26,369 nt of DNA from a virus: positions 1 through 26,369 of the IMG/VR virus record IMGVR_UViG_3300032173_000037; one strand, written 5' to 3'. Shown here in pieces: positions 865 through 26,369 of the stretch (positions are counted from its first letter, which is position 1; each line of letters begins with the position of its first letter). The position numbers were made by a program, and so were the translations under genes. The notes under the pieces are model-generated. The model was given only the letters and a program-made list of their open reading frames with translations. It did no database searches and was not told where the DNA came from.

Positions 865-886
865 CGTGCCCACGCGGGCGGGCACG
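865..886 (-). promoter_or_regulatory. 5'-leader hairpin of the SSB-like gene
   Basis: CGTGCCC and GGGCACG form a perfect 7-bp stem with an 8-nt loop in the leader between the promoter at 904-931 and the ATG at 829. It could stabilise the mRNA or serve as a translational operator; no direct evidence for either. Confidence 0.3.
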
Positions 887-903: not shown

Positions 904-931
904 ACTCTACCAGATTCCGTCCGGCTGTCAA
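904..931 (-). promoter_or_regulatory. repeat-family promoter P1
   Basis: -35 TTGACA (926-931), 16-bp spacer starting GCCG, -10 TAGAGT (904-909). It drives the SSB-like gene. The TGA inside the -35 box is the stop codon of the nuclease gene ending at 928. Confidence 0.8.
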
Positions 932-2016
932 GCGGAAGCGGGAGCGTCCACGGCCCTGCGCCAGACAGGCTTGCCCAGCGCCACCAGCGAGAAGCCCGGC
1001 CAGCACGCTCCGACGAACGGGCAGTAGCCGCAGCGGAAGCCGACGAACGGCCCGCTGCCGTGCCGCTTGCTGTCGCGCGCCGTGTCGATCTGCTCCACGG
1101 GGCCGAACGTGCCGTCCGCGCGCGCGTTGCGCCCCGGCAGCGTGACGCTGACGGCCCACTTCGGACGCGGGACGTTCGCGAGGATGTACGCCAGCGCGGA
1201 CTCCGGGTTGACGCCGTCCAGCGACGCCGTGAACGCGCGCACGTCGTCCAGCCCCACGCCCGTCTGCACCATCGCCAGCGTCCGCAGATGACGCCAGACG
1301 TACGCCGCCTTCGCGACCAACTCACGTTCGTGCTGCTCGTCGTGCGGGATGACCACTTCGCAGACGTGGCCCGTGGACTTCTTCACGCCGATGATGTAGC
1401 CCATCTTGCCGTCGCCGCGCCCGGCGAGCCGCAGCATGAGCATATACCAGCGCACCTGCGCGATGATGTCGTCCCGCGCCTCCGTCCACCACTTCGCGTT
1501 CGGGTTGCGCGCGGCTTCCTCCGCGTCGTCGTACCCGTAGTCGGACATCGACTTCCAATCCGCGACGCATTCGCCGTGGTCGTTCACGCTGATGGTGCAG
1601 TCGATGTTCCCGGCGATGGGGAACGGCTCCTTGCTGTCGTACCCGAAGTCCGCCGGGACGATCAGCGACGACAGCCGCAACTGCTCGCCGCCCACGTCGG
1701 GCGTCAGGAACTGCACGCCAGCCTGCCGCGCCAGCAGCATCCCCACCGCCTCCACGCTGTCGCCCAGCGTGAAGATGACGCGGGACCGGGGCGTGTCGTC
1801 CTCACGGTGCGCCGCCATCGGCAGCGCGTCGAACAACTGCCGCCGCGCGCAGTACCACTTGCTGCTGGGGGACGGCACGCGCACGCGATGCTCGCGCTTG
1901 GCGCCGAAGTTCTTGGACAGCGAGCGCCGCACGTGCGCCGCCGCAACGTCCAGCAGCGCGTCCGGCACGTCCTTGCCGTCGTTCCGCAGGTAACTGTCGA
2001 TGGCATCCGCGATCAT
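928..2016 (-). CDS. Cas4/RecB-like PD-(D/E)XK nuclease with predicted Fe-S cluster
   Basis: 362 aa. Visible nuclease motifs are D139 in GNIDCTIS, D153-x-K155 in VADWKS, and a Q187-x3-Y191 helix (QVRWY), the standard PD-(D/E)XK order of RecB/Cas4 exonucleases. One cysteine before the core (C56, in KWYCARR) and three after it (C329, C332, C338 in FRCGYCPFVGAC) reproduce the split four-cysteine arrangement that holds a 4Fe-4S cluster in Cas4 and AddB. The motif I histidine is not obvious. The ATG has the same ribosome site as its neighbours (GGAGGCCACGCC before ATG). Its stop codon TGA lies inside the -35 box of the next promoter. Neighbouring an SSB-like gene, it likely processes DNA ends during phage replication or recombination. 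No cas genes or arrays are present, so a CRISPR role is unlikely. Confidence 0.75.
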   Translation of the reverse strand: MIADAIDSYLRNDGKDVPDALLDVAAAHVRRSLSKNFGAKREHRVRVPSPSSKWYCARRQLFDALPMAAHREDDTPRSRVIFTLGDSVEAVGMLLARQAGVQFLTPDVGGEQLRLSSLIVPADFGYDSKEPFPIAGNIDCTISVNDHGECVADWKSMSDYGYDDAEEAARNPNAKWWTEARDDIIAQVRWYMLMLRLAGRGDGKMGYIIGVKKSTGHVCEVVIPHDEQHERELVAKAAYVWRHLRTLAMVQTGVGLDDVRAFTASLDGVNPESALAYILANVPRPKWAVSVTLPGRNARADGTFGPVEQIDTARDSKRHGSGPFVGFRCGYCPFVGACWPGFSLVALGKPVWRRAVDAPASA

Positions 2017-2041
2017 GGCGTGGCCTCCGTTGGGTTCGCAA

Positions 2042-2069
2042 ACAGTACCACGAATCAAGCGGCTGTCAA
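2042..2069 (-). promoter_or_regulatory. repeat-family promoter P2
   Basis: -35 TTGACA (2064-2069), 16-bp spacer beginning GCCGCTTGATT, -10 TACTGT (2042-2047). It drives the nuclease gene with a leader of about 20 nt. The TGA in the -35 box is the stop codon of the oxygenase gene ending at 2066. Confidence 0.85.
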
Positions 2070-2689
2070 CTGTCTGCGTGAATCCATCCGCCCAGCGCGA
2101 TGCGCCCGCTCATGGGGTCCGCGCTCCAGCACTCGACGGGCTCCACTTCGTGCTTGTCCTTCGGATGGAACAGCACCAGCCGATCCCACTCCGGCATGAC
2201 CGAAACCGCGCCGCGTGTAAACGTCAAGGCCCCGCCGCTGAACAGGCGCGGCAGGTCGTAGCAGTACCAACTAAATGCCAGCCGCCTGCGCGCGTACTGC
2301 GACAGGCTGTTGTCCGTGTGCGGCTTGTAGAAGCCCCGGTGATGGTACAGCGCCGTCTGGAACTCCCAGCCGCCCAGCGTGAACGCCTCCATGCCCAGCA
2401 TCCGCAGCGCGACCGGAACGCGCTCCAGCACGTGCGCCTTGAACTCGTCCAGCCAGCCGTCCGGCAGTTCAGCCATCCAGCCCGGCGGCATCACGTAGCC
2501 GACGCGGTGCTGCGTCCTGCTGGGGGACTCCTCGCGCCCCGTCGTGGACGGCATCATCAGCGCCACGTGTTCGCGCAGCGTGTGCAGGAACTGCTCGCAG
2601 CGTTCGTGCCCCATCACCCTGTCGGCCACGCACGGAGTGACCGGGCGCTGGCGCTCCGGCAGCGGGATGGTATCGTCGTCGTCGGTCAT
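2066..2689 (-). CDS. 2-oxoglutarate/Fe(II)-dependent oxygenase (P4H-like fold)
   Basis: 207 aa. The facial triad is clear: H124-x-D126 in YKPHTDN and the distal H180 in DKHEVEPV. R196 in SGRIALGGW would bind the 2-oxoglutarate carboxylate. The segment between them (RRLAFSWYCYDLP, then FSGGALTF) is the usual double-stranded beta-helix core of prolyl-4-hydroxylase-type enzymes. The N-terminal 100 residues are less typical. The ATG at 2689 has AGAGG 8 nt upstream. A strong hairpin (2717-2744) separates it from the gene upstream, and no repeat-family promoter precedes it, so it is probably expressed by readthrough from P3. The substrate is unknown; in phages such enzymes may modify nucleobases or proteins. 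The fold call is firm, the role is not. Confidence 0.82.
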   Translation of the reverse strand: MTDDDDTIPLPERQRPVTPCVADRVMGHERCEQFLHTLREHVALMMPSTTGREESPSRTQHRVGYVMPPGWMAELPDGWLDEFKAHVLERVPVALRMLGMEAFTLGGWEFQTALYHHRGFYKPHTDNSLSQYARRRLAFSWYCYDLPRLFSGGALTFTRGAVSVMPEWDRLVLFHPKDKHEVEPVECWSADPMSGRIALGGWIHADS

Positions 2690-2716
2690 AGGGCGTTCCT
2701 CTGGCCTCCGTGGGAA

Positions 2717-2744
2717 GGGGGGCGGGCTTCGCGGCCCGCCCCCC
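2717..2744 (-). terminator. GC-rich hairpin, intergenic terminator or attenuator
   Basis: Perfect 11-bp stem (GGGGGGCGGGC / GCCCGCCCCCC) with a 6-nt loop, directly after the stop codon at 2751. On the minus strand it is followed only by TTCCC, so it lacks a proper U-tract. It may attenuate transcription into the oxygenase gene. Confidence 0.6.
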
Positions 2745-2750
2745 AACCTG

Positions 2751-3377
2751 TCAGGCGTCCAGATACTTGCCGTCGTTCGGCCGCGCCTTGTCGAAGAAGC
2801 GACGCGCCAGCACCGTGTCGCCGTCCGCGAGCGTGACGTAGCGCGCGAACTCCGCCTTGGCCTGCTCGCTGCGGTACTGCTCCGTGCGCGCCGCGTCGAT
2901 CTTGCCCGTGACGTGTTCGGCGATGCGAGCGCGCCCCGTCGCCGCGTCCGTGCGCGCCTTCTCCCCGGCATCCCAGCGCTTCTTCGCGTCCGCGTACGAG
3001 CCCAGCGCCACGCGCACGCGGTCGTACGCCTCACGGGAGAAATGCGCCTCCGTCGTCACGGTCACTTCGTCCGTCGCCGGACGCGCCACCTTGGAGTAGT
3101 CGCCGTCCTTGTAACTCGCGTACTCCGTGCCCATGCGCTCGCTGGCGCTCACCAGCGCCGCCACCTTCTCCGCGTCCTCACGCTTCGCGAAGGCGATGCC
3201 GCCTACGTTGTACGTGGTCACGTCCTTCGGCGCGATGGGCTTGACCGGCTCCGCGCCGGGGCCCGGGGGCAGGAGCGGCACGCCCTCTTCCGCGCACTCG
3301 CGGTCGATGTGGAACTGCACCTGCTCGTCGGTCAGTGACAGCAGTTCACCTGCCGTCAAGTCATCGAAACGCTTCAT
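2751..3377 (-). CDS. hypothetical protein, helical, charged
   Basis: 208 aa, not recognised. The N-terminus (MKRFDDLTAGELLSLTDEQV) reads as two short amphipathic helices. A proline-rich stretch follows (PLLPPGPGAEPVKPIAPKDV, about 34-52), and the C-terminal half is a long, highly charged Ala/Arg/Lys/Asp/Glu helical region that could form a coiled coil. No cysteine pairs, signal peptide or membrane segment. The ATG is chosen because of GGAGGCCACGACG directly upstream, almost identical to the ribosome site of the nuclease gene. It has its own promoter, P3, at 3422-3449. Its position among DNA-metabolism genes suggests an early function, but nothing in the sequence defines one. Confidence 0.75.
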   Translation of the reverse strand: MKRFDDLTAGELLSLTDEQVQFHIDRECAEEGVPLLPPGPGAEPVKPIAPKDVTTYNVGGIAFAKREDAEKVAALVSASERMGTEYASYKDGDYSKVARPATDEVTVTTEAHFSREAYDRVRVALGSYADAKKRWDAGEKARTDAATGRARIAEHVTGKIDAARTEQYRSEQAKAEFARYVTLADGDTVLARRFFDKARPNDGKYLDA

Positions 3378-3421
3378 CGTCGTGGCCTCCGTGTCGCTGG
3401 GGGCTCCAGCGACGTGCGCGA

Positions 3422-3449
3422 ACTGTACCACGCCGCAACCGGCTGTCAA
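3422..3449 (-). promoter_or_regulatory. repeat-family promoter P3
   Basis: -35 TTGACA (3444-3449), 16-bp spacer starting GCCGGTTGC, -10 TACAGT (3422-3427). It drives the 208-aa gene. The TGA in the -35 box terminates the HTH gene ending at 3446. It shares 19 identical bases around the -35 box with P1. Confidence 0.85.
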
Positions 3450-3682
3450 GCGGAAGCCAGCGTCTCCAGCGACGCCACCAGCCGCTCCGCCGCGTTGCGG
3501 TACGGCGTCGCCTCGCCGCGCGCATACCGGCTGATGGTGGCCAGCGACACGCCGGACGCTCGCGCGATTTCCTCCATCGTGTGCTGCTTGCAGAGCCGCG
3601 TCACCAACTCCAGCACGCGCTTCTGCTCCTTCGTGCGCTCGCGGTCGAAACCCGGGCGCGCTCGCTTCGTCTTCTTGGTCAT
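3446..3682 (-). CDS. small helix-turn-helix DNA-binding protein
   Basis: 78 aa. A basic N-terminus (MTKKTKRARPGF) is followed by a helix and a clear HTH at about residues 35-57: TMEEIARASGVSLATISRYARG, with the usual A-x3-G turn and a recognition helix like those of XRE or resolvase/Hin-type domains. The start is the ATG at 3682, which overlaps the upstream stop as ATGA and has GGAGG 4 nt before it. The gene is translationally coupled to the 84-aa gene and shares its promoter, P4. Its stop codon lies inside promoter P3. As one of two HTH genes in the window, it is a candidate regulator of the repeat-family promoters. That role is inference only. Confidence 0.8.
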   Translation of the reverse strand: MTKKTKRARPGFDRERTKEQKRVLELVTRLCKQHTMEEIARASGVSLATISRYARGEATPYRNAAERLVASLETLASA

Positions 3683-3933
3683 GCTGCCTCCAGAGTAAAC
3701 CACTCGCCCGTCGGTGCAGCCGGGACCATCCCGTCTTGCAGCGCGACCGCCAGCCAGATGAACAGCGCTTTCGCCGCCTTGATTTCGCCGCGCATTTCAC
3801 GGTATCGGAACGCCTCGCCCGTGTCCGGGTCCAGCGCGTCCACGCACCATCTGCGCCCATCGGAGCGCAGCGCGAGCGTGTAGCGCCCGACCGTTTCAAC
3901 GGTCAGGGCGTCCTTCGTGAAGTCGCCAGCCAT
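3679..3933 (-). CDS. hypothetical protein, probably translated from a leaderless mRNA
   Basis: 84 aa, not recognised. It starts MAGDFTKDALTVETVGRYTLALRSDGRRWCVDALD, suggesting a beta hairpin or small beta-sheet, then a helix (MRGEIKAAKALFIWLAVAL) and a short tail. The start ATG lies only 7 nt after the -10 hexamer of P4, so the transcript should begin at or within a base or two of the ATG, with no room for a Shine-Dalgarno site. Its stop overlaps the start of the HTH gene (ATGA). The layout, a small protein co-expressed with a regulator, could reflect a cofactor or antagonist, but no homology supports this. Confidence 0.7.
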   Translation of the reverse strand: MAGDFTKDALTVETVGRYTLALRSDGRRWCVDALDPDTGEAFRYREMRGEIKAAKALFIWLAVALQDGMVPAAPTGEWFTLEAA

Positions 3934-3940
3934 CCCGCGA

Positions 3941-3968
3941 ACCTTACCACGTCTCGCCCGGCTGTCAA
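3941..3968 (-). promoter_or_regulatory. repeat-family promoter P4 (leaderless)
   Basis: -35 TTGACA (3963-3968), 16-bp spacer starting GCCGGGCGA, -10 TAAGGT (3941-3946). The predicted start site falls on the ATG at 3933. The TGA of the -35 box is the stop codon of the gene ending at 3965. Confidence 0.8.
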
Positions 3969-4234
3969 GTGTAGTCCCGCAGGAACTCGTCCCGCGCGTA
4001 CGTGATGCCGCAGTGCCCCAGCGGGGGCGCCACCGCGAAGACGACGCAGCGCCCCGGCTGCTCGCGCAGGTACGTGTAAACGGGGGCCCACGGCGTATCC
4101 GCCACGGCGCGCGCGGACTTTGGGTACATCCGCGCCCAGAGCCGCAGCCCCAGCATAGAGCCCCCGATCAGGCAGGCCCCCAGCCGAATCTGCGCCGCCG
4201 CCATGTCGTCCACCACGTCCCTGCGCGTGTCCAT
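3965..4234 (-). CDS. hypothetical protein
   Basis: 89 aa, not recognised. An N-terminal helix (MDTRRDVVDDMAAAQIRLG) leads into a moderately hydrophobic stretch (ACLIGGSMLGLRLWARM, about 19-35) that could be a short membrane segment or a buried helix. The rest is a compact domain with YTYL and CVVFAVAPPLGHCGITYA strands. The ATG has GGAG 8 nt upstream. The stop TGA is embedded in promoter P4. Upstream lies a gap of about 150 nt with only a degenerate copy of the promoter -35 region and a bare TTGACA at 4375-4380, so its promoter is uncertain. Confidence 0.65.
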   Translation of the reverse strand: MDTRRDVVDDMAAAQIRLGACLIGGSMLGLRLWARMYPKSARAVADTPWAPVYTYLREQPGRCVVFAVAPPLGHCGITYARDEFLRDYT

Positions 4235-4380
4235 GTCTTACGCTCCTGACGCTTTTCGGTTGTAGTCCAATCGGCTGTCGCCCGGTCGCGTGTGTGCGCG
4301 CGTGCGCGGACGCGCCTGCGCGCGCGCCCGCACGTGTACGAGGGATAGCAGGCTCAAAACGCTGGGGGGTAGCGTGTCAA
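4235..4380. other. intergenic region with alternating purine-pyrimidine tract and degenerate promoter element
   Basis: Contains a strict CG/TG alternation of 22 nt at 4287-4308, with further CG alternation to about 4340. A GACAGCCG element at 4272-4279 on the minus strand resembles the repeat-family -35/spacer but has no usable -10. TTGACA at 4375-4380 on the minus strand has only a weak TTTGAG -10. ATTGGACTAC occurs at 4262-4271 and again at 4384-4393. Confidence 0.5.
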
Positions 4381-4659
4381 TCACGTAGTCCAATGCGGGG
4401 GCTGGGGGCTCCAGCCGCCCGCCGCCCACGCGGAGCCCGCCCTAAATGCCAGCCCCACCAGCGCCGCGCTGCTGCCCTCCGTGGACGGCAGCACCGTCTG
4501 GTGGAGCCAGCGGCGCCCGCTGGCGGGCTCCTCGCAGGCGAGTCGCAGGCCGGGCCCGCCCGCCCGCAGCGTGGCCCGGACGACCGCGAAGACGTACGGG
4601 CACGTCTTCGGCTCCACCAGCGGCTCGGGGGCCGTCTGCGGGGCGTCCTGCGGGCTCAC
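4381..4659 (-). CDS. hypothetical protein coupled to the alarmone hydrolase
   Basis: 92 aa, not recognised. A Pro/Glu-rich N-terminus (about 1-18) is followed by CPYVFAVVRATLRAGGPGLRLACEE, then RRWLHQTVLPSTEG and a Gly/Trp-rich tail, which looks like a small beta-rich domain. The start is a GTG overlapping the stop of the upstream hydrolase as GTGA, with GGAG 8 nt before it; this overlap type recurs elsewhere in the window. It is probably translated only together with the hydrolase. The region is GC-rich and other frames are open, so reality of the gene rests on the overlap and ribosome site. Confidence 0.55.
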   Translation of the reverse strand: MSPQDAPQTAPEPLVEPKTCPYVFAVVRATLRAGGPGLRLACEEPASGRRWLHQTVLPSTEGSSAALVGLAFRAGSAWAAGGWSPQPPHWTT

Positions 4660-5159
4660 GCCAGCCGCTCCGCCAACTCCGCCCGGAGCGTCACGTCGGC
4701 CAGCGGCATGGCCAGCAGGAGCGCCACCGCCTCCGCCCGGTACACCGGCCAGAACTTCGCGTCATGCTCGCGGATGCTCCGGGCGTTGTCGATCAGGTCC
4801 GCGCACTTGATCGTCTGCGCCTCCGGGCAGCACGCCGCCAGCCGCAGCGTCTCGCGCGCCTTGCGCTCCGCCCGGTTGCCCGTCGTCAGCGGCTCCGTCA
4901 GTTGATCGACCAGCCGCGCGACGGCGGGGCCGAACTCCATCAGCACGTCGTCCAGCGTGGCGCGCGTGTCCTCCACCACGTCGTGCAGGAGCGCTGCCGC
5001 CCGCATCACGTCCACGTCCGCCGCGTACGTCAGCGGCAGCGTGTTCAGCAGCGCCGCCACGGCACGCGGATGCTCCACGTAGCGCTCGCCCGTGTACTTG
5101 CGGAACTGCCCCGCGTGCGCGCCCGCCGCGAATCCATCAGCCCGTGCGATCAGAGACAT
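4656..5159 (-). CDS. SpoT/MESH1-like HD-domain (p)ppGpp hydrolase
   Basis: 167 aa, about the size of single-domain small alarmone hydrolases. The signature elements are in order: AHAGQFRKYTGERYVEHP (15-31) with metal ligand H30, ALLHDVVEDT (56-65) with ligands H59 and D60 and the catalytic E63/D64 pair, and TIKCADLIDN (116-125) with ligand D121. This is the Mn-dependent HD hydrolase of RelA/SpoT and MESH1, which removes the 3'-pyrophosphate of ppGpp. No synthetase, TGS or ACT domain is attached. GGAGG sits 7 nt before the ATG. A 26-nt near-palindrome lies upstream at 5191-5216. The likely role is to lower alarmone levels in infected cells; activity on other nucleotides such as NADPH is possible. 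Confidence 0.85.
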   Translation of the reverse strand: MSLIARADGFAAGAHAGQFRKYTGERYVEHPRAVAALLNTLPLTYAADVDVMRAAALLHDVVEDTRATLDDVLMEFGPAVARLVDQLTEPLTTGNRAERKARETLRLAACCPEAQTIKCADLIDNARSIREHDAKFWPVYRAEAVALLLAMPLADVTLRAELAERLA

Positions 5160-5190
5160 GGGAAACCCTCCGTGTGTGTGTCGAGTGTAG

Positions 5191-5216
5191 CCGGGCGCCC
5201 CACGTGGAGCGCCCGG
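5191..5216. promoter_or_regulatory. 26-nt near-perfect palindrome upstream of the hydrolase
   Basis: CCGGGCGC and GCGCCCGG flank a CCACGTGG core; the only mismatch (5199/5208) is a G-U pair in the minus-strand RNA. It lies between the SprT-like gene and the hydrolase gene with no U-tract after it. It could be an attenuator, an RNA stability element or an operator; TACACT just downstream (5184-5189) could be a -10 hexamer, but no matching -35 is seen. Confidence 0.5.
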
Positions 5217-5228
5217 CGTTTGAACGTC

Positions 5229-5972
5229 CTAGAACGGCGGGATGATCTCGCCGGGCCTGCCCTGCATCGGCGCGGGCTTCGCGCCCACCTGCATCGCCTC
5301 GCCCACCTTGTCGCAGTCGTCGTTCGGGCACGTGGGAGCCGCCACGTCCAGCCACTTCTGCGTCGTCCGCACCGTGTAGCCGCACGCCTTGCACGCGCAC
5401 TTGACCATCCGGCTACCCACCTGCTTCTTGGGCTTGTCGCTGACCGTCCACTCCGTCACGTCCATCTTCGCGTGCGGGTAGAGCCCCAGCGCGGGCAGCA
5501 GCGACGCCTTGAACTCCGCCTTCAACTCGTCGCTGGCCACCGTGCTAGTGGGCTTGCCGTCCAGCCCCAGCGCCTTGCAGAGCGCCGCGAACTCCACGCC
5601 GTGACCGGCCTCCGTGCCCAGCGCCGCGTGCGCGCACTCGTGCAGGAGGATGTCCAGCACGCGCGAGCCGTCGTCCACGTACGGCGTGACGAAGATTTCC
5701 ACCGTGCCCTTCGCGCTCACCTTGGGGTGCCAGCACTCGCCCAGCACGCGCCCGCGCGCCGCCGTACCGCGCGAGGACGGCCAGCCGCAGGTCGCCTTCA
5801 GCGCCTTGGGGAGCGGCTTCCCGGCCTTCGCGAAGCGCACGCGGAAGGCGTCGATGGCCGCAGCCAGCCACTCCTCGCGCGTGTCGAACTTCGTGCTGTT
5901 CGACCGGCGCGCGTTCTCGCGGCCCGTCGTCGTCTTCGTCGTCTTCGCCGCAGTCATCGTCGCGTTGCTCAT
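5229..5972 (-). CDS. SprT-like zinc metalloprotease
   Basis: 247 aa. The zinc-peptidase motif H111-E112-C-A-H115 (LLHECAHAALG) is followed by H124 in the GHG motif as third ligand, the SprT/Spartan layout. A C-terminal zinc ribbon follows: CACKACGY (194/197) and CPNDDC (215/220). The preceding domain (WLAAAIDAFRVRF to VEIFVTPYVDDGSRVLD) matches the helical and strand part of SprT domains. The C-terminus ends EIIPPF, reminiscent of the DNDIPF tip of the SSB-like protein nearby. The ATG at 5972 is used because GGAG TACCTGACC precedes it, identical to the next gene upstream. It has its own promoter, P5. SprT/Spartan proteases degrade proteins crosslinked to DNA; a genome-protection role in infection is inferred. 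Confidence 0.85.
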   Translation of the reverse strand: MSNATMTAAKTTKTTTGRENARRSNSTKFDTREEWLAAAIDAFRVRFAKAGKPLPKALKATCGWPSSRGTAARGRVLGECWHPKVSAKGTVEIFVTPYVDDGSRVLDILLHECAHAALGTEAGHGVEFAALCKALGLDGKPTSTVASDELKAEFKASLLPALGLYPHAKMDVTEWTVSDKPKKQVGSRMVKCACKACGYTVRTTQKWLDVAAPTCPNDDCDKVGEAMQVGAKPAPMQGRPGEIIPPF

Positions 5973-6013
5973 GGTCAGGTACTCCGTGTCAGCCACTGCG
6001 GCCGACGGTCCAA

Positions 6014-6041
6014 ACTCTACACCACTTCAACCGGCTGTCAA
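6014..6041 (-). promoter_or_regulatory. repeat-family promoter P5
   Basis: -35 TTGACA (6036-6041), 16-bp spacer starting GCCGGTTGAAG, -10 TAGAGT (6014-6019). It drives the SprT-like gene with a leader of about 35 nt. TTCTCTG immediately precedes the -35 box, as in P6 and P7. The pyrimidine tail of the upstream terminator runs into it. Confidence 0.85.
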
Positions 6042-6045
6042 CAGA

Positions 6046-6075
6046 GAAAAGAAGGGGCGGTGTAAGTCCCGCCCC
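6046..6075 (-). terminator. Rho-independent terminator of the 102-aa gene
   Basis: Minus-strand stem GGGGCGG / CCGCCCC (6069-6075 with 6054-6060), 8-nt loop, followed by TTCTTTTC. This is the best canonical terminator in the window. It sits directly between the gene ending at 6085 and the next promoter. Confidence 0.8.
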
Positions 6076-6084
6076 GGTAAGCGT

Positions 6085-6393
6085 TTACACGCGCGCCATC
6101 TTTCGCTCAAAGGCGCGCGCCGCGTCGTCCGCCTCCACCTGCGGCTGCGACTCGTACGCCTCCAGCCGCTCGTACTCGTCCGCCGTGATGGCCACGTCCC
6201 GCAGGTTCCAGCCCATGCGCGCGCGCAGCGCCATCATGGACGCCGCTGCGTGAGCGGGCGTCACGTCGCGCCCTTCGTGGTAGCGCGCCAGCACCTGCGT
6301 GCGGGGCTCGCAGCGCACCAGCGTGTCCAGCCCGTCCGCCGTCAGGAAGCCGAAGTTCGCCAGCAGGTCAGCCGTCAGTTCAGCGCGCGTCAT
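6085..6393 (-). CDS. hypothetical protein, possibly antitoxin- or regulator-like
   Basis: 102 aa, not recognised. It reads MTRAELTADLLANFGFLTADGLDTLVR, then QVLARYHEGRDVTPAHAAASMMALRARMGWNLRDVAITADEYERLEAYE: mostly helical, with a possible HTH-like helix pair at about 44-65. No cysteine motifs or membrane segments. The ATG has the ribosome site GGAG TACCTGACC, a 16-nt identity (with the ATG) to the SprT-like gene start. It is a monocistronic unit between promoter P6 and a canonical terminator. The function cannot be read from the sequence. Confidence 0.75.
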   Translation of the reverse strand: MTRAELTADLLANFGFLTADGLDTLVRCEPRTQVLARYHEGRDVTPAHAAASMMALRARMGWNLRDVAITADEYERLEAYESQPQVEADDAARAFERKMARV

Positions 6394-6431
6394 GGTCAGG
6401 TACTCCGTCGGTCACTGCGACCGATGCGCGG

Positions 6432-6459
6432 AGTCTACCCCAAATCAAGCGGCTGTCAA
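6432..6459 (-). promoter_or_regulatory. repeat-family promoter P6
   Basis: -35 TTGACA (6454-6459), 16-bp spacer starting GCCGCTTGATT, -10 TAGACT (6432-6437). Preceded by TTCTCTG. It drives the 102-aa gene. Confidence 0.85.
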
Positions 6460-6545
6460 CAGAGAATCCGCTGTACGTTTACACGCCGGGCCCTTGACAA
6501 GTTCGCCCGGGGAGCGCGCGCTAAATGTTCGGCCCGGAAACGAAG

Positions 6546-6569
6546 CGGGCCCGGAGCGATCCGGGCCCG
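6546..6569 (-). terminator. terminator hairpin after the HicA-like gene
   Basis: Perfect 10-bp stem (CGGGCCCGGA / TCCGGGCCCG) with a 4-nt loop, then CTTCGTTT on the minus strand. It lies between the HicA-like gene and P6. The rest of the 140-nt gap holds a second, weaker CCGGGC/GCCCGG inverted repeat and one copy of the 10-mer CGTTTACACG (6476-6485). Confidence 0.65.
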
Positions 6570-6601
6570 TGGGCATCTTCGCCGTGGCGTTGGATCGCCC
6601 G

Positions 6602-6814
6602 TCAGCAGCGGAGCCCGGAGCGCCGGAGGCTCGCGCGCAGGTTCGCGTACGCGCGCCAATCCCCCGGAGTGCCGGACGTGTACACCATCCGCTTCGTCTT
6701 GTCGGCGGGCACGAAGCAGACGTGGCCCTTGGTCGTCTTCTCCACCACCCAGCCCTGCGCCAGCGCCTTGTCGATCAGGTCGGCCACCTTGTCGTCGTTG
6801 CGAGCCATCGTCAT
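6602..6814 (-). CDS. HicA-like small RNA-binding-fold protein
   Basis: About 70 aa. The pattern is that of the HicA double-stranded-RNA-binding fold: N-terminal helix (VADLIDKALAQGW), strand VVEKTTKGHVCFVP with the conserved Gly-His of HicA toxins, then MVYTSGTPGDWRAYANLRASLRRSGL, a version common in phage and actinobacterial HicA-like proteins. GGGAGG lies 4 nt before the ATG at 6814 and 10 nt before an in-frame ATG at 6808, so either may be used. It has its own promoter, P7, and its own terminator. No HicB antitoxin partner is adjacent, so a toxin role is unproven; it may be a stand-alone RNA-binding protein. Confidence 0.7.
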   Translation of the reverse strand: MTMARNDDKVADLIDKALAQGWVVEKTTKGHVCFVPADKTKRMVYTSGTPGDWRAYANLRASLRRSGLRC

Positions 6815-6851
6815 CGTGCCTCCCGTCCGCCACTGCGGCAGACGTGCCCGT

Positions 6852-6879
6852 ACAGTAGCACGTCTCAAGCGGCTGTCAA
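6852..6879 (-). promoter_or_regulatory. repeat-family promoter P7
   Basis: -35 TTGACA (6874-6879), 16-bp spacer starting GCCGCTTGAGA, -10 TACTGT (6852-6857). Preceded by TTCTCTG, immediately after the stop codon at 6887. It drives the HicA-like gene. Confidence 0.85.
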
Positions 6880-8306: not shown

Positions 8307-8335
8307 AACGTACCGCAACATTTAGCCGCTGGCAA
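8307..8335 (-). promoter_or_regulatory. variant repeat-family promoter P8
   Basis: -35 TTGCCA (8330-8335), 17-bp spacer, -10 TACGTT (8307-8312). It keeps several family positions (CAGC, GGTAC) but not the exact -35 or spacer length. It starts just after the stop codon of the fibre-like gene and would drive the three-gene module. A five-codon ATG-TGA reading frame (TAAATG context) lies inside it. Confidence 0.5.
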
Positions 8336-11300: not shown

Positions 11301-12505
11301 GGAACTGCGCCGTTCGGCGGAGCCGCCTTCCCGCCGTTGATGTACGGGGACAACATAACGCTGCCGCCAGCGCCCGCAGGCGGAGTGTCCGGCACCGCAG
11401 GCGACGAAGACGCGGAGCCCGCGCTGGCGTTCGCGCTGTCGGTCGCGAGCCCGCCGGAGTAGTCGGGCCCCAACACGCCTCCGCCAGCGCCGGGATCGGG
11501 CGGGACCGTAGGCGACGGAGTGCCGCCCGTGCCGCCGCGCCCGTCCGCCGCAGGCGGATCGACCGGCGTCGTCGCCTTGCCGGGGCCCGTGTCGCGCGGC
11601 GTGGTGGGGTTGTCCAAGTCCGTCGTCGTCGCCGGGCTCTTCCGGTTGTCGCCGACGCCGATGCAGATGCCGAAGCCCGGCAGGTTGTCCTTGCCGCTGG
11701 GAGCCAACTGCCACGCCAGCGCGTTGCCGGGGCCCTTCACCAACTGCCCGACCGTGTCTTCCAGCGGGACGACGCGCATCATGGACTGCAAGCGCGCCGT
11801 GCGCCCCGTGATGCCAGCCACCGCGCCCTCGCCGCCCATCGCGATTTCGCCGTCCGGCTGCAAGTCGCAGACGATGGTGCCCATGTCGGGCGGGCCCCCG
11901 ACGTTCGCCGCAATCAACCGGCTGTCAGCGTGGAACAGCAAGTCCTCCTGCGCGTGTTCCTCCGTGCCGGACATCGCGATGACCAGCGTCCCCTTGGGGA
12001 GCCCGGGGAGCGCCTTCGGCCAATCCTTCGCCGTGGCGTTCGCGTAGCGCACGTCCGCCAGATACGCGCGGTCCTTGACCGGCAGCGCCATCGGATCGCT
12101 GGAGCCCGCGCTGCCCGCCGCGCCAGCGGACGCACTGCCGCCACGGCCCAGCCCCGGCGTGACCGCTCCGCCCGGCGCCCGCGACGGGCCCGTGCCGGGC
12201 GACGTGACTGCGCCTCCGGTCGCGCCAGCCTGCCCGACGATGCCGCCGAACGCAGGCGACCACGAACCAGCGTAGCGCCCGTCGTGTCGGTCGTCCGTCT
12301 GCCAATAGCGGTAGGGGTGCAGGTCGCCCAGCGTCCCCAACTTGTCCTGCTTCGCCCACGTGACGATGCCCGCCTTCTCCCCCGTCTCGTCCAGCGTGCT
12401 GATGCGCCCAGCGACCAACTGCTGCCGCAGCGACAACTTCGCCCGCTTGTCGTGGTCCTGAAGCGGGAAGACGCCGTGTTCGGACCAATCGCGCGTGAAG
12501 GACAT
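8339..12505 (-). CDS. tail fibre-like / receptor-binding structural protein
   Basis: 1388 aa, the largest protein. The N-terminal part (1-290) is a globular domain (LGDLHPYRYWQTDD, NLPGFGICIGVGDN) and probably attaches to the baseplate. Two Pro/Thr/Gly-rich linkers follow (about 300-345 and 534-620, with repeated TPxDP-type motifs), then a folded middle domain (620-960) and a C-terminal region with two tandem repeats of SRAPNGSAGG-x-LTGTYP and LGAGS-x-QAAAGNDAR, modules typical of phage tail fibres. It ends in a beta-rich tip (about 1255-1388). It starts MSFTRDW at a TAAATG junction with the upstream gene. Receptor binding is inferred from architecture and position at the end of the tail operon. 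Confidence 0.75.
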   Translation of the reverse strand: MSFTRDWSEHGVFPLQDHDKRAKLSLRQQLVAGRISTLDETGEKAGIVTWAKQDKLGTLGDLHPYRYWQTDDRHDGRYAGSWSPAFGGIVGQAGATGGAVTSPGTGPSRAPGGAVTPGLGRGGSASAGAAGSAGSSDPMALPVKDRAYLADVRYANATAKDWPKALPGLPKGTLVIAMSGTEEHAQEDLLFHADSRLIAANVGGPPDMGTIVCDLQPDGEIAMGGEGAVAGITGRTARLQSMMRVVPLEDTVGQLVKGPGNALAWQLAPSGKDNLPGFGICIGVGDNRKSPATTTDLDNPTTPRDTGPGKATTPVDPPAADGRGGTGGTPSPTVPPDPGAGGGVLGPDYSGGLATDSANASAGSASSSPAVPDTPPAGAGGSVMLSPYINGGKAAPPNGAVPPGRGTGGTKKQPFSVETGPFSKQPSGLVVGFAAHRPTCGPLELGHVKSDKHSFGQTKDDEHCNSLHVSVNAFFYNDKDQDGPLHFTKAKWPDPSPLPGVGRVHLGWDGAADHEWFGGTKQGKWKWWCEVPYLTPSKPPRKGVPEPPDPVPVPEPKDPVITPSDPAPPTTPTDPVTPSGPKRPASPTTPGDPMPGNPGGPAAGGAGGRSGPPVTTPTTPGVTTEPLPPGYWDGDPDTMPGWGDGKIPKSWFPSPGVTSPPGGKPVCALGWGGKGGMGTSALGVDRTAALAVDTYRGGRGKGGTDYANLDESGAMDFASVRGTPRWLGITPTVGVVDEEWKDGLYLIHHPLMESFASLSFRPQLEYKRFVDFRHNPEVSQAVLIADEAARPQTVAQHAWGAQEDGDWKYTKSPEESRARGGVVGGGFVYTPPNVMLFDLLNGTGGTAANSGSALVEAFVGYAPGVSLFFGRPKKDGGVAAKSVVLRQNRANTDEGFILSQYNSARVETALLTAKVQQSTGELYVGVSGKQAFGLPHGTTADRPTTPATGMVRWNTTNTELEAYDGGAWAAVGGSAAASFFAAVVGKTGSWSISSPADDGTLFYVIPSGAINTTLPSSPRDGFTVGVFRSGSSFTVQIARGGTDTMVGGSNVLSSTFYDIGVNECVLFVYQASDTRWIVMPVCPLEGAGSSGYGVVKLSAAGVADRALLANDPTTTNSRAPNGSAGGQLTGTYPSPSVASGVLNSSHFDASYLDGIAGLYCLRSLGAGSTQAAAGNDARLSDSRAPNGSAGGDLTGTYPNPTVAALAITDAKVAAANKDGAAATASMRTLGAGSAQAAAGNDARFPTMLYKSSAQTAIGTAYADISSLTFSVAASKTYAFEFFIIADADATTTGIDVACNGPTIGAGTINYEQTYWTAAGTFVTVQATAYDNNTASAASPGTTTRIYKVSGILVNGANAGTLAARIKREAVGSGPNVRAGSWGRYWLLN
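8776..9160 (-). repeat. tandem repeats within the fibre-like gene
   Basis: Two copies of SRAPNGSAGG(Q/D)LTGTYP(S/N)P(S/T)V and two of LGAGS(T/A)QAAAGNDAR alternate over this stretch (about residues 1115-1243 of the 1388-aa protein). The copies are also similar at nucleotide level, so they are possible sites of recombination and length variation. Confidence 0.8.
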
Positions 12506-23548: not shown

Positions 23549-24310
23549 CTACTGCGCGCTGCCGCCGACGATGGCCTTGGCGCCGCCCGCCATGTTGATC
23601 TCCACGTAGCGGTCCACGCTGATGCGCGTGTGCCCGCCCGCGATGAGCGTGGCGTGTTCGCGCGCGAACTTCGCCGCGCGCTCCACGGCGTCCACGCCGT
23701 CCTTCTGGTACTTCATGGCGACGGCGGGCACGTTCGCGCCCTGCGCGCCGAAGTCCTCGGCCTTGCGACCGTCGGACGTGGCGCCGATGCGGGGCGCGAC
23801 CGCCTGCATCTGCTCCACGTACGCCTTGAACGCGACCGCGCCGTGCGCCTTGCGGAACTTCAGGAGCCCGCCGCGCACGTCGGAGCCCAGCGCGCGGTCC
23901 TTCAGGGACTCCACGGCCGCGTCCACGTCCGCGTTGCACTCGCGCTCCGCCTTCATCTGCGACAGTTCGGCCTTCGCCGCCGCCGCGTCCGCGCTCACGC
24001 GGGCGAACTCCACGGGGTCGATGCCGTCGGAGCGACGCATGGCCGTCGCCGGGCCCGCCGCCGGGGCCGGGAGCGCGTCCGCGTTCGGCTTCGGCTCCGT
24101 CTTCTCCTCGCCGCCGGACTCCTGCGCCGCCATCGCGTCCTTGATGGCCGCGAAGTCCTTGACGCTGATGCTGCCGTTCTTGATCGCGGCCAGCACCGCG
24201 CCCACGTCCAGCCCGCCCTCGCCGCCGTCCTTGCCCTGCTTGTCGCCCTTCGGGGGGCCGTCCTTCTTGGGGGCGTCGTCCTTCTTGTCCTTCGGGGCGT
24301 CTTCGGGCAT
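23549..24310 (-). CDS. probable nested scaffold protein (internal in-frame start)
   Basis: An internal ATG (Met212 of the protease ORF, MPEDAPKDKK) has GGAGG 8 nt upstream; GGAGGCCAACGCC before the ATG is one base different from the nuclease gene's GGAGGCCACGCC. Translation from it would give a 253-aa scaffold without the protease domain, as known for Mu gpZ and lambda Nu3. The site falls exactly at the protease/scaffold domain boundary. The start is inferred; no direct evidence of use. Confidence 0.6.
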   Translation of the reverse strand: MPEDAPKDKKDDAPKKDGPPKGDKQGKDGGEGGLDVGAVLAAIKNGSISVKDFAAIKDAMAAQESGGEEKTEPKPNADALPAPAAGPATAMRRSDGIDPVEFARVSADAAAAKAELSQMKAERECNADVDAAVESLKDRALGSDVRGGLLKFRKAHGAVAFKAYVEQMQAVAPRIGATSDGRKAEDFGAQGANVPAVAMKYQKDGVDAVERAAKFAREHATLIAGGHTRISVDRYVEINMAGGAKAIVGGSAQ

Positions 24311-24943
24311 GGCGTTGGCCTCCATCATCAGAGAAACGAACCGCTGGCGAGAAAAGGACAATACCACGCCGTCCTCGCCGTTTGAACGCTCCATCGAAAA
24401 AGTCTCACGTGAGACTGCGCCGCCGACCGGGGCGCCCACCGCCTGCACGCCGCTGCCGGGCACCACTTCACGGACCACCAGCATCGGCAGTTCCAGAAAC
24501 GGGGCCTCATGGTCCAGCAGCGCGAGGGAATCCAGATTCGGGTTGTCCACGTCGAAGATTTCGACGCTGCGGTACGGCAGGCGCTTCGCCAGCACGTCCG
24601 CCTGCGCCGCCGGATCGGTCACGATCAGGTCCGCCAGCAGCGCCGCGCGCAGCCCGCCCTTGAAACGGACCATCTGCTTCCGCGTGATGCGGAAAACGCC
24701 CGCAGACCGCACCTGCGAGTCGTCCCCTTCGTGATGCCGCACGTGCAGCGGGGGCAGGTAGCCGTCGGACTCGGCCTGCTTGGCGCGCGCCAGCGCCTTG
24801 TCCAGCCACGCCTCCGCGAACTCCACCTTGCCGCGCGTGCAGGTCACGAACACCGGCACGTCGTGGACGGTCAGCGAGCCGTCCGCGTTGCGCGTGGCCT
24901 TGAATCCCCACGCCGTGCTGATGCCGCTGTCGTTCGTGTTCAT
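23549..24943 (-). CDS. Mu gpI-like prohead protease with C-terminal scaffold
   Basis: 464 aa from ATG 24943, which overlaps the upstream stop as ATGA and has GGAG 9 nt before it. The N-terminal 160 residues match the phage head maturation protease layout: GYLPPLHVRHHEGD (61-74) with candidate catalytic H70/H71, LLADLIVTDP, and YRSVEIFDVDNPNLDSLALLDHEAP with candidate serine S126. A lysine/acid-rich linker (about 212-245) leads to a helical scaffold domain with LDVGAVLAAIKNGSISVKDFAAIKDAM and Ala-rich coils. This fused protease-scaffold is the Mu I/Z arrangement. It processes or organises the prohead. Confidence 0.8.
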   Translation of the reverse strand: MNTNDSGISTAWGFKATRNADGSLTVHDVPVFVTCTRGKVEFAEAWLDKALARAKQAESDGYLPPLHVRHHEGDDSQVRSAGVFRITRKQMVRFKGGLRAALLADLIVTDPAAQADVLAKRLPYRSVEIFDVDNPNLDSLALLDHEAPFLELPMLVVREVVPGSGVQAVGAPVGGAVSRETFSMERSNGEDGVVLSFSRQRFVSLMMEANAMPEDAPKDKKDDAPKKDGPPKGDKQGKDGGEGGLDVGAVLAAIKNGSISVKDFAAIKDAMAAQESGGEEKTEPKPNADALPAPAAGPATAMRRSDGIDPVEFARVSADAAAAKAELSQMKAERECNADVDAAVESLKDRALGSDVRGGLLKFRKAHGAVAFKAYVEQMQAVAPRIGATSDGRKAEDFGAQGANVPAVAMKYQKDGVDAVERAAKFAREHATLIAGGHTRISVDRYVEINMAGGAKAIVGGSAQ

Positions 24944-25152
24944 CGCTGCGCGCTCCGTTTGAACGCGGTGGACTCTACCACGCGACGCACGCCGAACAGA
25001 ATGGCCAGCGTCGGTGGCCTTTCCGCGCGCATCAGGCGGTACACGGTAGCCCGGCCCGCCGGGATTCGCTCCGCGACCGTGTCCGCGCCCATATGAGCCA
25101 CTGCGCGCCGCAGTTCGGGGCGAAGGCTGGCCCACAACTCGTCACGTGACAT
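24940..25152 (-). CDS. small HTH protein within the head operon
   Basis: 70 aa. MSRDELWASLRPELRRAVAHMG is followed by a helix-turn-helix at about 24-45: DTVAERIPAGRATVYRLMRAER, with the recognition helix ATVYRLM, then a third helix. The basic C-terminus (FKRSAQR) could also contact DNA. The ATG at 25152 overlaps the upstream stop as TGATG; a GTG one codon earlier is possible. Its stop overlaps the protease ATG (ATGA). A -10-like TAGAGT lies inside it (24972-24977). A DNA-binding protein here is unusual; it may regulate the head operon or the repeat-family promoters. Function is inferred. Confidence 0.7.
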   Translation of the reverse strand: MSRDELWASLRPELRRAVAHMGADTVAERIPAGRATVYRLMRAERPPTLAILFGVRRVVESTAFKRSAQR

Positions 25153-26141
25153 CACGCCACTGCCGCCTTGATGAACAGGTCGGGCCTGCCGCCGTGACGG
25201 AAGCCCGGGTCAGGGTAGGCGTCGCCCGGCAGGCTGTCCTCGCGGATGCTCCCGTCGGCATTTAGCCGCCCCATCCGCATCAGGCTGAAGCGCGACACGA
25301 ACGCGACCGTGCAGCGGCAGTTGTAGCCCAGCGGGGGCGCGATCTTGTTCCATACGCCGTTGTCCTGACGGAAGATCAGCCCGTTCGCAGCCTTGTGGTT
25401 CGCGCGGCAGTCGCTGTCGCCGATGGCGTGGAACTTCAGCGCCGGGATGACGCCGCGCACGTCTTGGTCCTGCACCTGCCGGAAGCGGCCCGCCGTCGTG
25501 GCCGTGTTCAGGTTGGTGCGGTACACCATCCGCGAATACGCCTCCGTCCAATCCGCCGCCTCCTTCTCCACCCAGCGCACGCCCGCGCTGATGAGCGTGC
25601 CCGCCTCGCGCTCCGCGAGCCCTTCGGCGATGGCCTGCACCAGCAACTTCTGCACGCGCTCCGCCACCGCCTGCTCCGTGGCGCGCACGAACGCCAGCAC
25701 GCGCCCCTCGCCGTACATCTGCGCGATGCGCTGCGCCGTGCGCTCCGCCGCCTGCCTCACCACCTTCGGCGTCCTCGCCCGCAAGTCCTCCAGCATTTCG
25801 TTGAACTGAATGCGGGGCAGGTCCGTGCCGACTCCGACCGGCCGAGAGAACACGATGGACAGGCGCCTGCGGTCCAGCGGAGCCTCCGCGTTTACACGCG
25901 GTGCCTCCATGAGCCCCGCCGCCGCCTCCAGCGCGTGCGCGCAGCCCACGGCGTCGGCCATGCCCATCGTGGCACCAATCACGTCGTCCAGCACCACACG
26001 CGCGCGCTCCATGCCCGCGCGGTCGCCCATCGCCGTCGCCACCACCAAGTCGTTGGCGGCAAGCGTGTACGGACGAGAGCCCGTGGCGTACAGCCGCTCC
26101 AACTCGCGTTCGCTGTTCAGATGGCCTTCGTCGGCGGACAT
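25152..26141 (-). CDS. Mu gpF-like minor head / head morphogenesis protein
   Basis: 329 aa. The C-terminal region carries the SPP1 gp7/Mu gpF head morphogenesis signature: FHAIGDSDCRANHKAANG (about 237-254), QDNGVWNKIAPPLGYNCRCTVAFVS (258-282), with the two C-x-C/D-C elements. The N-terminal half is helical with LEAAAGLM and RRRLSIVFSRPVGVGTDLPRIQFNEMLEDL. It starts MSADEGHLNSERELERLY directly after the upstream stop (GGAGCGCTAAATG). These proteins sit on the portal inside the capsid and help assembly and DNA ejection. Confidence 0.85.
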   Translation of the reverse strand: MSADEGHLNSERELERLYATGSRPYTLAANDLVVATAMGDRAGMERARVVLDDVIGATMGMADAVGCAHALEAAAGLMEAPRVNAEAPLDRRRLSIVFSRPVGVGTDLPRIQFNEMLEDLRARTPKVVRQAAERTAQRIAQMYGEGRVLAFVRATEQAVAERVQKLLVQAIAEGLAEREAGTLISAGVRWVEKEAADWTEAYSRMVYRTNLNTATTAGRFRQVQDQDVRGVIPALKFHAIGDSDCRANHKAANGLIFRQDNGVWNKIAPPLGYNCRCTVAFVSRFSLMRMGRLNADGSIREDSLPGDAYPDPGFRHGGRPDLFIKAAVA

Positions 26142-26369
26142 TTAGCGCTCCACGTGCGGCAGCAGTCGCATCGCCGCGTCGTCCGGCAGCGTAGCAGGCA
26201 CGATGATGCGCCTCCACCACCAGCCGTCCGTGCGCCACGCCGCCGCCGCCATGTCCTTGGCCCACGCCGAGCCGTACGCCGTCCGCGAGAGCCCGGGGCC
26301 CTCCAGAGCCACGCGGATCAGCGCGGGCTTCGCCTGCCCGTCCTCGCGCCCCAGCAGCCAGAAGCCAGC
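26142..26369 (-). CDS. C-terminal part of an upstream virion gene (portal candidate), cut by the window edge
   Basis: The last 75 codons are visible, reading AGFWLLGREDGQAKPALIRV, later WRTDGWWWRR and ending LLPHVER with TAA abutting the gpF-like ATG. The start lies outside the window. In Mu-like gene order the gene before gpF is the portal, but this fragment holds no diagnostic motif. The frame is open from the edge with codon use like its neighbours. Confidence 0.6.
   Translation of the reverse strand, partial: AGFWLLGREDGQAKPALIRVALEGPGLSRTAYGSAWAKDMAAAAWRTDGWWWRRIIVPATLPDDAAMRLLPHVER

Follow-up and report, generated by a model that had tools for sequence, protein, structure and literature searches.

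The virus record IMGVR_UViG_3300032173_000037, which is called the window here in its full length of 26,369 bases and which makes up about 60% of a phage genome, carries seven near-identical promoters on its minus strand; six more lie in the remainder of the genome. They are probably early promoters transcribed by the host RNA polymerase, serving at least 13 units whose messenger RNAs (mRNAs) would be shielded by a hairpin at the 5' end; the early timing is suggested by the gene content of the units. The part of this arrangement that may be new is the terminal-hairpin module, which is common to several phage lineages.

The core of the promoter, TTGACAGCCG, occurs exactly on the minus strand at 922–931, 2060–2069, 3440–3449, 3959–3968, 6032–6041, 6450–6459, and 6870–6879 (each site is named below by the second of these numbers), and all seven sites have a 16-bp spacer and TAnnnT. 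When one mismatch is allowed, nine matches to the core are obtained against 2.3 expected, a number that none of 100 shuffles reached. A scan of both strands of the window for TTGACA-N15-18-TAnnnT gave these seven sites and no further occurrence, and in all seven the −35 box is followed by GCCG. The −35 and −10 hexamers are of the sigma70 type, and their occurrence 15–19 bp apart is beyond chance. A preliminary description of this DNA had placed the seven sites correctly, and its statement that TTGA comes after GCCG in four of them is exact (2069, 6041, 6459, and 6879). It had also listed a variant with a 17-bp spacer, TTGCCAGCGG-17-TACGTT (8307–8335, minus strand, first base 8335); such a sequence exists, but its score with the position matrix described below is borderline, at 12.4 versus 34–43 for the seven, and near the level of shuffled sequence (0–1 matches per strand), and it can be counted as a weak relative of the set at most.

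On the minus strand, TTGACAGCCGGACGGAATCTGGTAGAGT (904–931) precedes gene 170–829, and TTGACAGCCGCTTGATTCGTGGTACTGT (2042–2069) precedes, without a leader hairpin, the PD-(D/E)XK/Cas4-like nuclease gene 928–2016; TTGACAGCCGGTTGCGGCGTGGTACAGT (3422–3449) precedes gene 2751–3377, and TTGACAGCCGGGCGAGACGTGGTAAGGT (3941–3968) precedes gene 3679–3933 and then a helix-turn-helix (HTH) gene. At these four sites the upstream gene ends on the TGA within TTGACA; it is, respectively, open reading frame (ORF) 928–2058, ORF 2066–3034, the HTH gene 3446–3703, and ORF 3965–4234. The ATG of gene 3679–3933 stands at the predicted transcription start of promoter 3968, so that this mRNA would be leaderless. The other three promoters are TTGACAGCCGGTTGAAGTGGTGTAGAGT (6014–6041), followed by the SprT-like gene 5229–5972, TTGACAGCCGCTTGATTTGGGGTAGACT (6432–6459), followed by gene 6085–6393, and TTGACAGCCGCTTGAGACGTGCTACTGT (6852–6879), followed by gene 6602–6814.

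The promoter pattern also retrieved a second contig, IMGVR_UViG_3300032173_000068 (L066, 18,663 bases), which overlaps positions 1–148 and 26243–26369 of the window (148 bp at 99.3% and 127 bp at 100% identity) and closes with it a circle of about 44.8 kb, a size like that of longer relatives. Across the junction, the portal gene of L066 is followed by the genes for the minor head protein and the major capsid protein in the window, an order that is kept in related contigs; no transfer RNA was found at the contig junction. The window and L066 are two halves of one circular or circularly permuted phage genome, and L066 contributes TerS, TerL, a helicase, and a primase-like protein. A position matrix was built from nine sites and used to scan both strands of both contigs as well as shuffled genomes. 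It found seven strong sites in the window and six in L066 (1560, 6474, 7896, 8427, 9463, and 10214), all in the direction of transcription, with none on the opposite strand and 0–1 weak matches in the shuffled genomes. Four of the six L066 sites have TTGCAA in place of TTGACA, and the full −35 box is thus found in the seven window sites and two of L066. Each of the 13 sites has non-structural genes downstream (for helicase, nuclease, SprT-like, HTH, and small unknown proteins); the set spans about 17 kb, and no site falls within the structural module. The idea of a regulon of seven units was right as to a single set read in one direction and too small as to its size. Promoters 6041 and, in L066, 8427, 9463, and 10214 each have a terminator-like hairpin that ends no more than about 12 nt away; that of promoter 6041, GGGGCGG..CCGCCCC with a T-rich tail (6054–6075, minus strand), is directly upstream.

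What follows the promoter is also shared, a feature more telling than any other and one that the preliminary description had overlooked. In 10 of the 13 units, a stem of 6–8 pairs begins 7 nt (nine units) or 8 nt (one unit) past the −10 box and is followed by a Shine–Dalgarno sequence and the start codon. At that distance, 6.8% of genome positions have a stem of 5 bp or more, and the six L066 leaders are near-copies, which count as one; among the seven leaders that are independent in their flanks, four have such a stem (P = 6e-4). The seventh base past the −10 box, the predicted +1, is A in 11 of 13 units, and the base before it is C in 11 of 13; if transcription starts there, the hairpin would begin at +2 or +3 in 10 of 13, which puts the stem within about 0–4 nt of the 5' end. 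In the window, on the minus strand, the arms CGTCTGCC and GGCGGACG enclose the loop GCAGT (6824–6844), as do TCGGTC and GACCGA (6408–6424) and GTCGGCC and GGCTGAC (5988–6006), all three 7 nt past the −10 box. The stem differences between units are compensatory or lead to G-U pairs, and the loop, GCAGU in the RNA, is retained in this phage. Unit 3449 has an 8-bp hairpin of unrelated stem and loop, GTCGCTGG and CCAGCGAC around AGCCC (3393–3413, minus strand), 8 nt past the −10 box. In the leader behind promoter 931 an inverted repeat, CGTGCCCGC and GTGGGCACG around CCGC (865–886, minus strand), is 17 nt past the −10 box and so not 5'-terminal; when the leader is folded in full, these bases have other partners in the structure of minimum energy. 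With E values up to 1 allowed, none of the Rfam covariance models matched the leaders. A weak match to the leader model (15.1 bits, E 0.005) was seen outside the promoter set, at 23584–23630 of the window (minus strand).

The leader recurs in other phages. IMG/VR was scanned for the leader rather than the promoter (the contigs are 54–66% GC), and about half of the matches of one scan, which lay inside coding sequence without a promoter, were discarded by eye. Roughly 25 viral contigs of other lineages, again judged by eye, carry the leader, many of them in two to five copies; one leader-carrying group has an SU10-type portal, and L153 has an integrase. In these contigs, CACGGTCGC..TGACCG..GGAG..ATG comes directly after TTGACA-type promoters with a different spacer sequence. 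A model, R1, trained solely on the leaders of other phages recovered all six L066 leaders (E 2e-8 to 2e-5) and one of the window (6403–6423, E 6e-4). R1 also recovered further leaders in the foreign contigs, where paired changes put TGGTT/AACCA or CCGC/GCGG in place of CGGTC/GACCG and the loops vary from 3 to 8 nt; the stem in alignment A4 was set by the search pattern, and covariation was therefore drawn only from alignment A3 and from model matches outside the seed. Because the loop length varies and G-U pairs occur, the element seems to act as RNA rather than as a DNA operator. Isolate phages were searched for the leader and none was found to have it, and three genome matches to its core lack a promoter in front and look like chance.

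Foreign promoters often hold a GAAnnnnTTC dyad in their spacer. In L104, L106, L123, L124, L135, L144, L162, and others, the dyad GAA(C)n(3-7)(G)TTC lies between the −35 and −10 boxes and is likely an operator; in the same contigs, many promoterless genes begin ATGGAGATnGAyATGA after a terminator hairpin. A capsid relative, G023 (L079 43–3265), has its own six or seven near-identical promoters, TTGCAC-16-TACCTT, followed near the predicted start by a hairpin, GCTGAGGGG-GTGGT-CCTCTCAGC, and then by a Shine–Dalgarno sequence. Since G023 has its own promoter family and a different hairpin, the architecture of promoter and hairpin recurs with other sequences.

These findings suggest how a unit might work. 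It would consist of a terminator (in several units), an extended −35 element TTGnnAGCCG, a 16-bp spacer, TAnnnT, usually the hairpin, a Shine–Dalgarno sequence, and the start codon. The host RNA polymerase would most likely transcribe the units at the onset of infection without a phage factor, reading the extended −35 and the −10 elements and starting at the conserved A. The RNA would then open with about one unpaired nucleotide, followed by the hairpin. RppH and RNase E require single-stranded 5' ends, and for RppH of B. subtilis two unpaired nucleotides are the minimum (PMC3997798). Because these enzymes need unpaired 5' nucleotides, the hairpin should lengthen the life of the mRNA, probably by blocking pyrophosphate removal and 5'-end-dependent decay while the ribosome site stays open. 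The cassette was probably multiplied inside the genome by copying. It can be proposed, more tentatively, that the leader CACGGUCGC..UGACCG serves as a mobile 5' "cap", a module of terminal hairpin and ribosome site that unrelated phages have behind different promoters, so that all their early mRNAs would escape 5'-end-dependent decay in the host. If so, the leader would represent a class of phage RNA elements not yet catalogued.

Several points weigh against early units with shielded mRNAs. Three of the 13 units (931, 2069, and 3968) have no 5'-terminal hairpin. Taken one by one, the leaders fold with energies that are unremarkable for sequence this rich in GC (z −1.5 to +1.0), so that the evidence for the hairpin comes from its position and from covariation; in the minimum-energy fold of the commonest L066 leader, the hairpin bases have other partners. 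Moreover, the transcription starts are predictions from the distance to the −10 box, and the host polymerase and decay enzymes are assumed.

An important question is what keeps the bases beyond the −35 box. In all 13 sites, the invariant columns are C(−2), TTG, A6, GCCG(7–10), G14, TA(23–24), and T28. The preliminary description had reported GCCG in its seven sites, and the case is now stronger, since GCCG is kept in 13 of 13 sites while positions 4 and 5 of the −35 box vary (in the four TTGCAA sites). Sites 931, 2069, 3449, and 3968 have unrelated flanks and differ in mid-spacer, yet have GCCG and G14 exactly. These bases point to the spacer edge being read by some factor, for which the polymerase, a sigma factor, and a regulator are all candidates. 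Among 32 contigs that are capsid-protein relatives or pattern matches (L066 excluded), none has a TTGACAGCCG promoter, and the early region is not common to them. Searches for relatives via the early proteins 5229–5996 and 928–2058 found none, nor did known phages match the capsid protein or the nuclease; as to the host, a capsid scan of genome contigs gave no relative.

One explanation is that the host RNA polymerase, or else an alternative sigma factor of the host, touches GCCG as an extension of the −35 box, a contact that would offset a weak −10 box and a short spacer. This has a serious chance of being right, if somewhat short of an even one. The sites are solely promoters with a fixed 16-bp spacing, and their −10 boxes are weak (TAGAGT, TACTGT), mostly with G or TGG in front. 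On the other hand, we know of no contact of sigma70 with the sequence GCCG, and GCCG is absent from the promoters of other phages that have the same leader.

Another possibility, and a more doubtful one, is the one originally proposed: that a phage repressor or activator reads the spacer, binding TTGnnAGCCG(n)TTGA over the −35 box and switching the 13 units together. The conserved spacer edge agrees with this, GCCG being invariant although two −35 bases vary; the same pattern would, however, be expected from an extended polymerase or sigma contact or from copying of the cassette. The candidate protein would be the 85-residue product of 3446–3703 (minus strand), which reaches the Pfam cut-off for HTH_3 (Cro/CI-like) and is the only local regulator candidate. 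Its domain is as first described and it lies in the unit downstream of promoter 3968, but nothing ties it to the sites, and a sequence search of the PDB gave only matches with E above 0.1. Furthermore, HTH_3 proteins usually bind dyads, which the element is not; TTGA is retained at some sites only; the element has no copies outside promoters and is hence inseparable from polymerase contact; and no relative has both the sites and the protein. The other HTH candidate of the preliminary description, the protein 24940–25155, is unlikely to be the regulator, because it has no HTH match above the cut-off and accompanies the head genes in at least 13 related loci without the promoters.

If an HTH repressor is at work, a pseudo-palindrome, CGTTTACACG / CGTGTAAACG, is a better candidate than the spacer for the site that it binds. 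There are 17 exact copies in the ~44.8 kb genome against about 0.2 expected, in and between genes (window 2214, 4073, 6082, 6476, 10016, 15776, 16999, 21809, and 25889; L066 575, 1523, 6438, 7144, 7869, 10695, 13382, and 15346). Copies stand 17–50 bp upstream of five promoters, with a sixth having one mismatch, and none was found in 19 relatives.

As for the hairpin, it could be bound by a protein that controls the translation of early genes, in the manner of T4 RegA or gp32 on their targets. Its place just upstream of the Shine–Dalgarno sequence and the constant loop GCAGU of the window phage would fit, but the loops are free in other phages and in unit 3449, which makes this unlikely.

The shared promoter bases might reflect nothing more than recent copying of a cassette that no factor reads. 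Sites 7896, 8427, 9463, and 10214 of L066 are indeed near-identical through the leader, and upstream flanks of the TTTCTCTG type recur. Copying alone, though, is no sufficient explanation of GCCG, because GCCG and G14 stay in the four sites with unrelated flanks and differing mid-spacer; this reading is quite improbable.

It is more improbable still that the GGTC..GACC inverted repeat at the transcription start is the DNA operator of a dimeric repressor and forms no RNA hairpin. The arms are largely constant and are placed where operators often sit; however, the half-sites would be spaced differently by several bp (loops of 3–8 nt), arm changes are compensatory or to G-U, the other phages already have a separate dyad in the promoter spacer, and leader 3449 retains a hairpin with a different sequence.

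Finally, stoperators as in mycobacteriophage L5 are hardly credible here: the L5 consensus, GGTGG(c/a)TGTCAAG, and CGGCTGTCAAG agree in 10 of 11 bases (PMC5712189), but every good site is a promoter, with none elsewhere in the genome, and no two-domain repressor of the L5 type was found among the proteins scanned with PHROGs and Pfam (most, not all, ORFs). The L5-type reading was rejected on this distribution, since stoperator sites would be spread and mostly away from promoters.

Other repeats were seen in the same genomes. CTAAATG(T) occurs 20 times in this genome against 1.1 expected, including five reverse copies (window 8319, 12503, 14774, 18102, 19755, 21057, 25259, and 26139; L066 951, 7513, 9099, 11122, 11515, 12797, and 13538). 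Many copies are TAA-ATG stop/start junctions, and others are reversed or within genes; it is likely also a motif at the DNA level, judging from these positions. A second promoter-like type, TTGAC..TGCTATCCCTCG(C/T)ACACG and, after it, a long GC-rich inverted repeat, is present at about 4290–4400 of the window (minus strand) and at 12172–12290 of L066 (plus strand), where, ahead of the terminase genes, it may be a late promoter. In the relative G021 (L076 12203–12431), a stretch of about 230 bp holds a cluster of nine GACTGGTTC / GAACCAGTC repeats, perhaps an origin or an operator array.

The promoter part is particular to one phage and the hairpin recurs behind other promoters, so the two functions are separable. 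This opens a test of whether a viral 5'-terminal hairpin is a general protector of early mRNA, and the succession of promoter, hairpin at +2, Shine–Dalgarno sequence, and ATG gives a search signature for early genes in uncultured phages.

The strong early promoters of T4, T5, and SPO1 use the host sigma factor, as is proposed for the present set, and resemble it in their many near-identical copies and in conservation beyond the hexamers; to our knowledge, they have neither a GCCG extension nor a shared terminal hairpin module. The nearest known kind is that of the start-associated sequences (SAS) and their extended form (ESAS) of the cluster K mycobacteriophages. Phages of this cluster, which includes TM4 and Adephagia, have 11–19 SAS, about half of them with the extended promoter part, the role of which is unclear, and seven ESAS of Adephagia hold SigA-like promoters (PMC3203893, PMC11373665). 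Like the present sites, they occur in many copies per phage genome, in one orientation, and upstream of non-structural genes, with a conserved sequence abutting the start codon. They differ in that the SAS is GGGATAGGAGCCC within 3–9 bp of the start, a sequence that was not found before start codons in the leaders of this phage set. In the ESAS, moreover, a 17–18 bp spacer is flanked by a 17-bp imperfect inverted repeat, whereas no such repeat was found around the promoters here, whose 13 spacers of 16 bp have no dyad. Unlike the SAS and ESAS, the present units have a hairpin at the predicted 5' end of the transcript, upstream of the Shine–Dalgarno sequence. The stoperators of L5 and cluster A are alike in being an asymmetric element with TGTCAA (the complement of TTGACA), one of which lies on an early promoter, but most of the roughly 24 sites of L5 have no promoter (PMC5712189, PMC9283540), whereas each good site here is one. 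Lastly, the 5'-terminal stabilising stem-loops of ompA and papA (reviewed in PMC3997798) likewise place a hairpin near the 5' end and upstream of the ribosome site; those are cases of single genes, whereas here one module serves 10 units within a single phage and is found again in other phage lineages.

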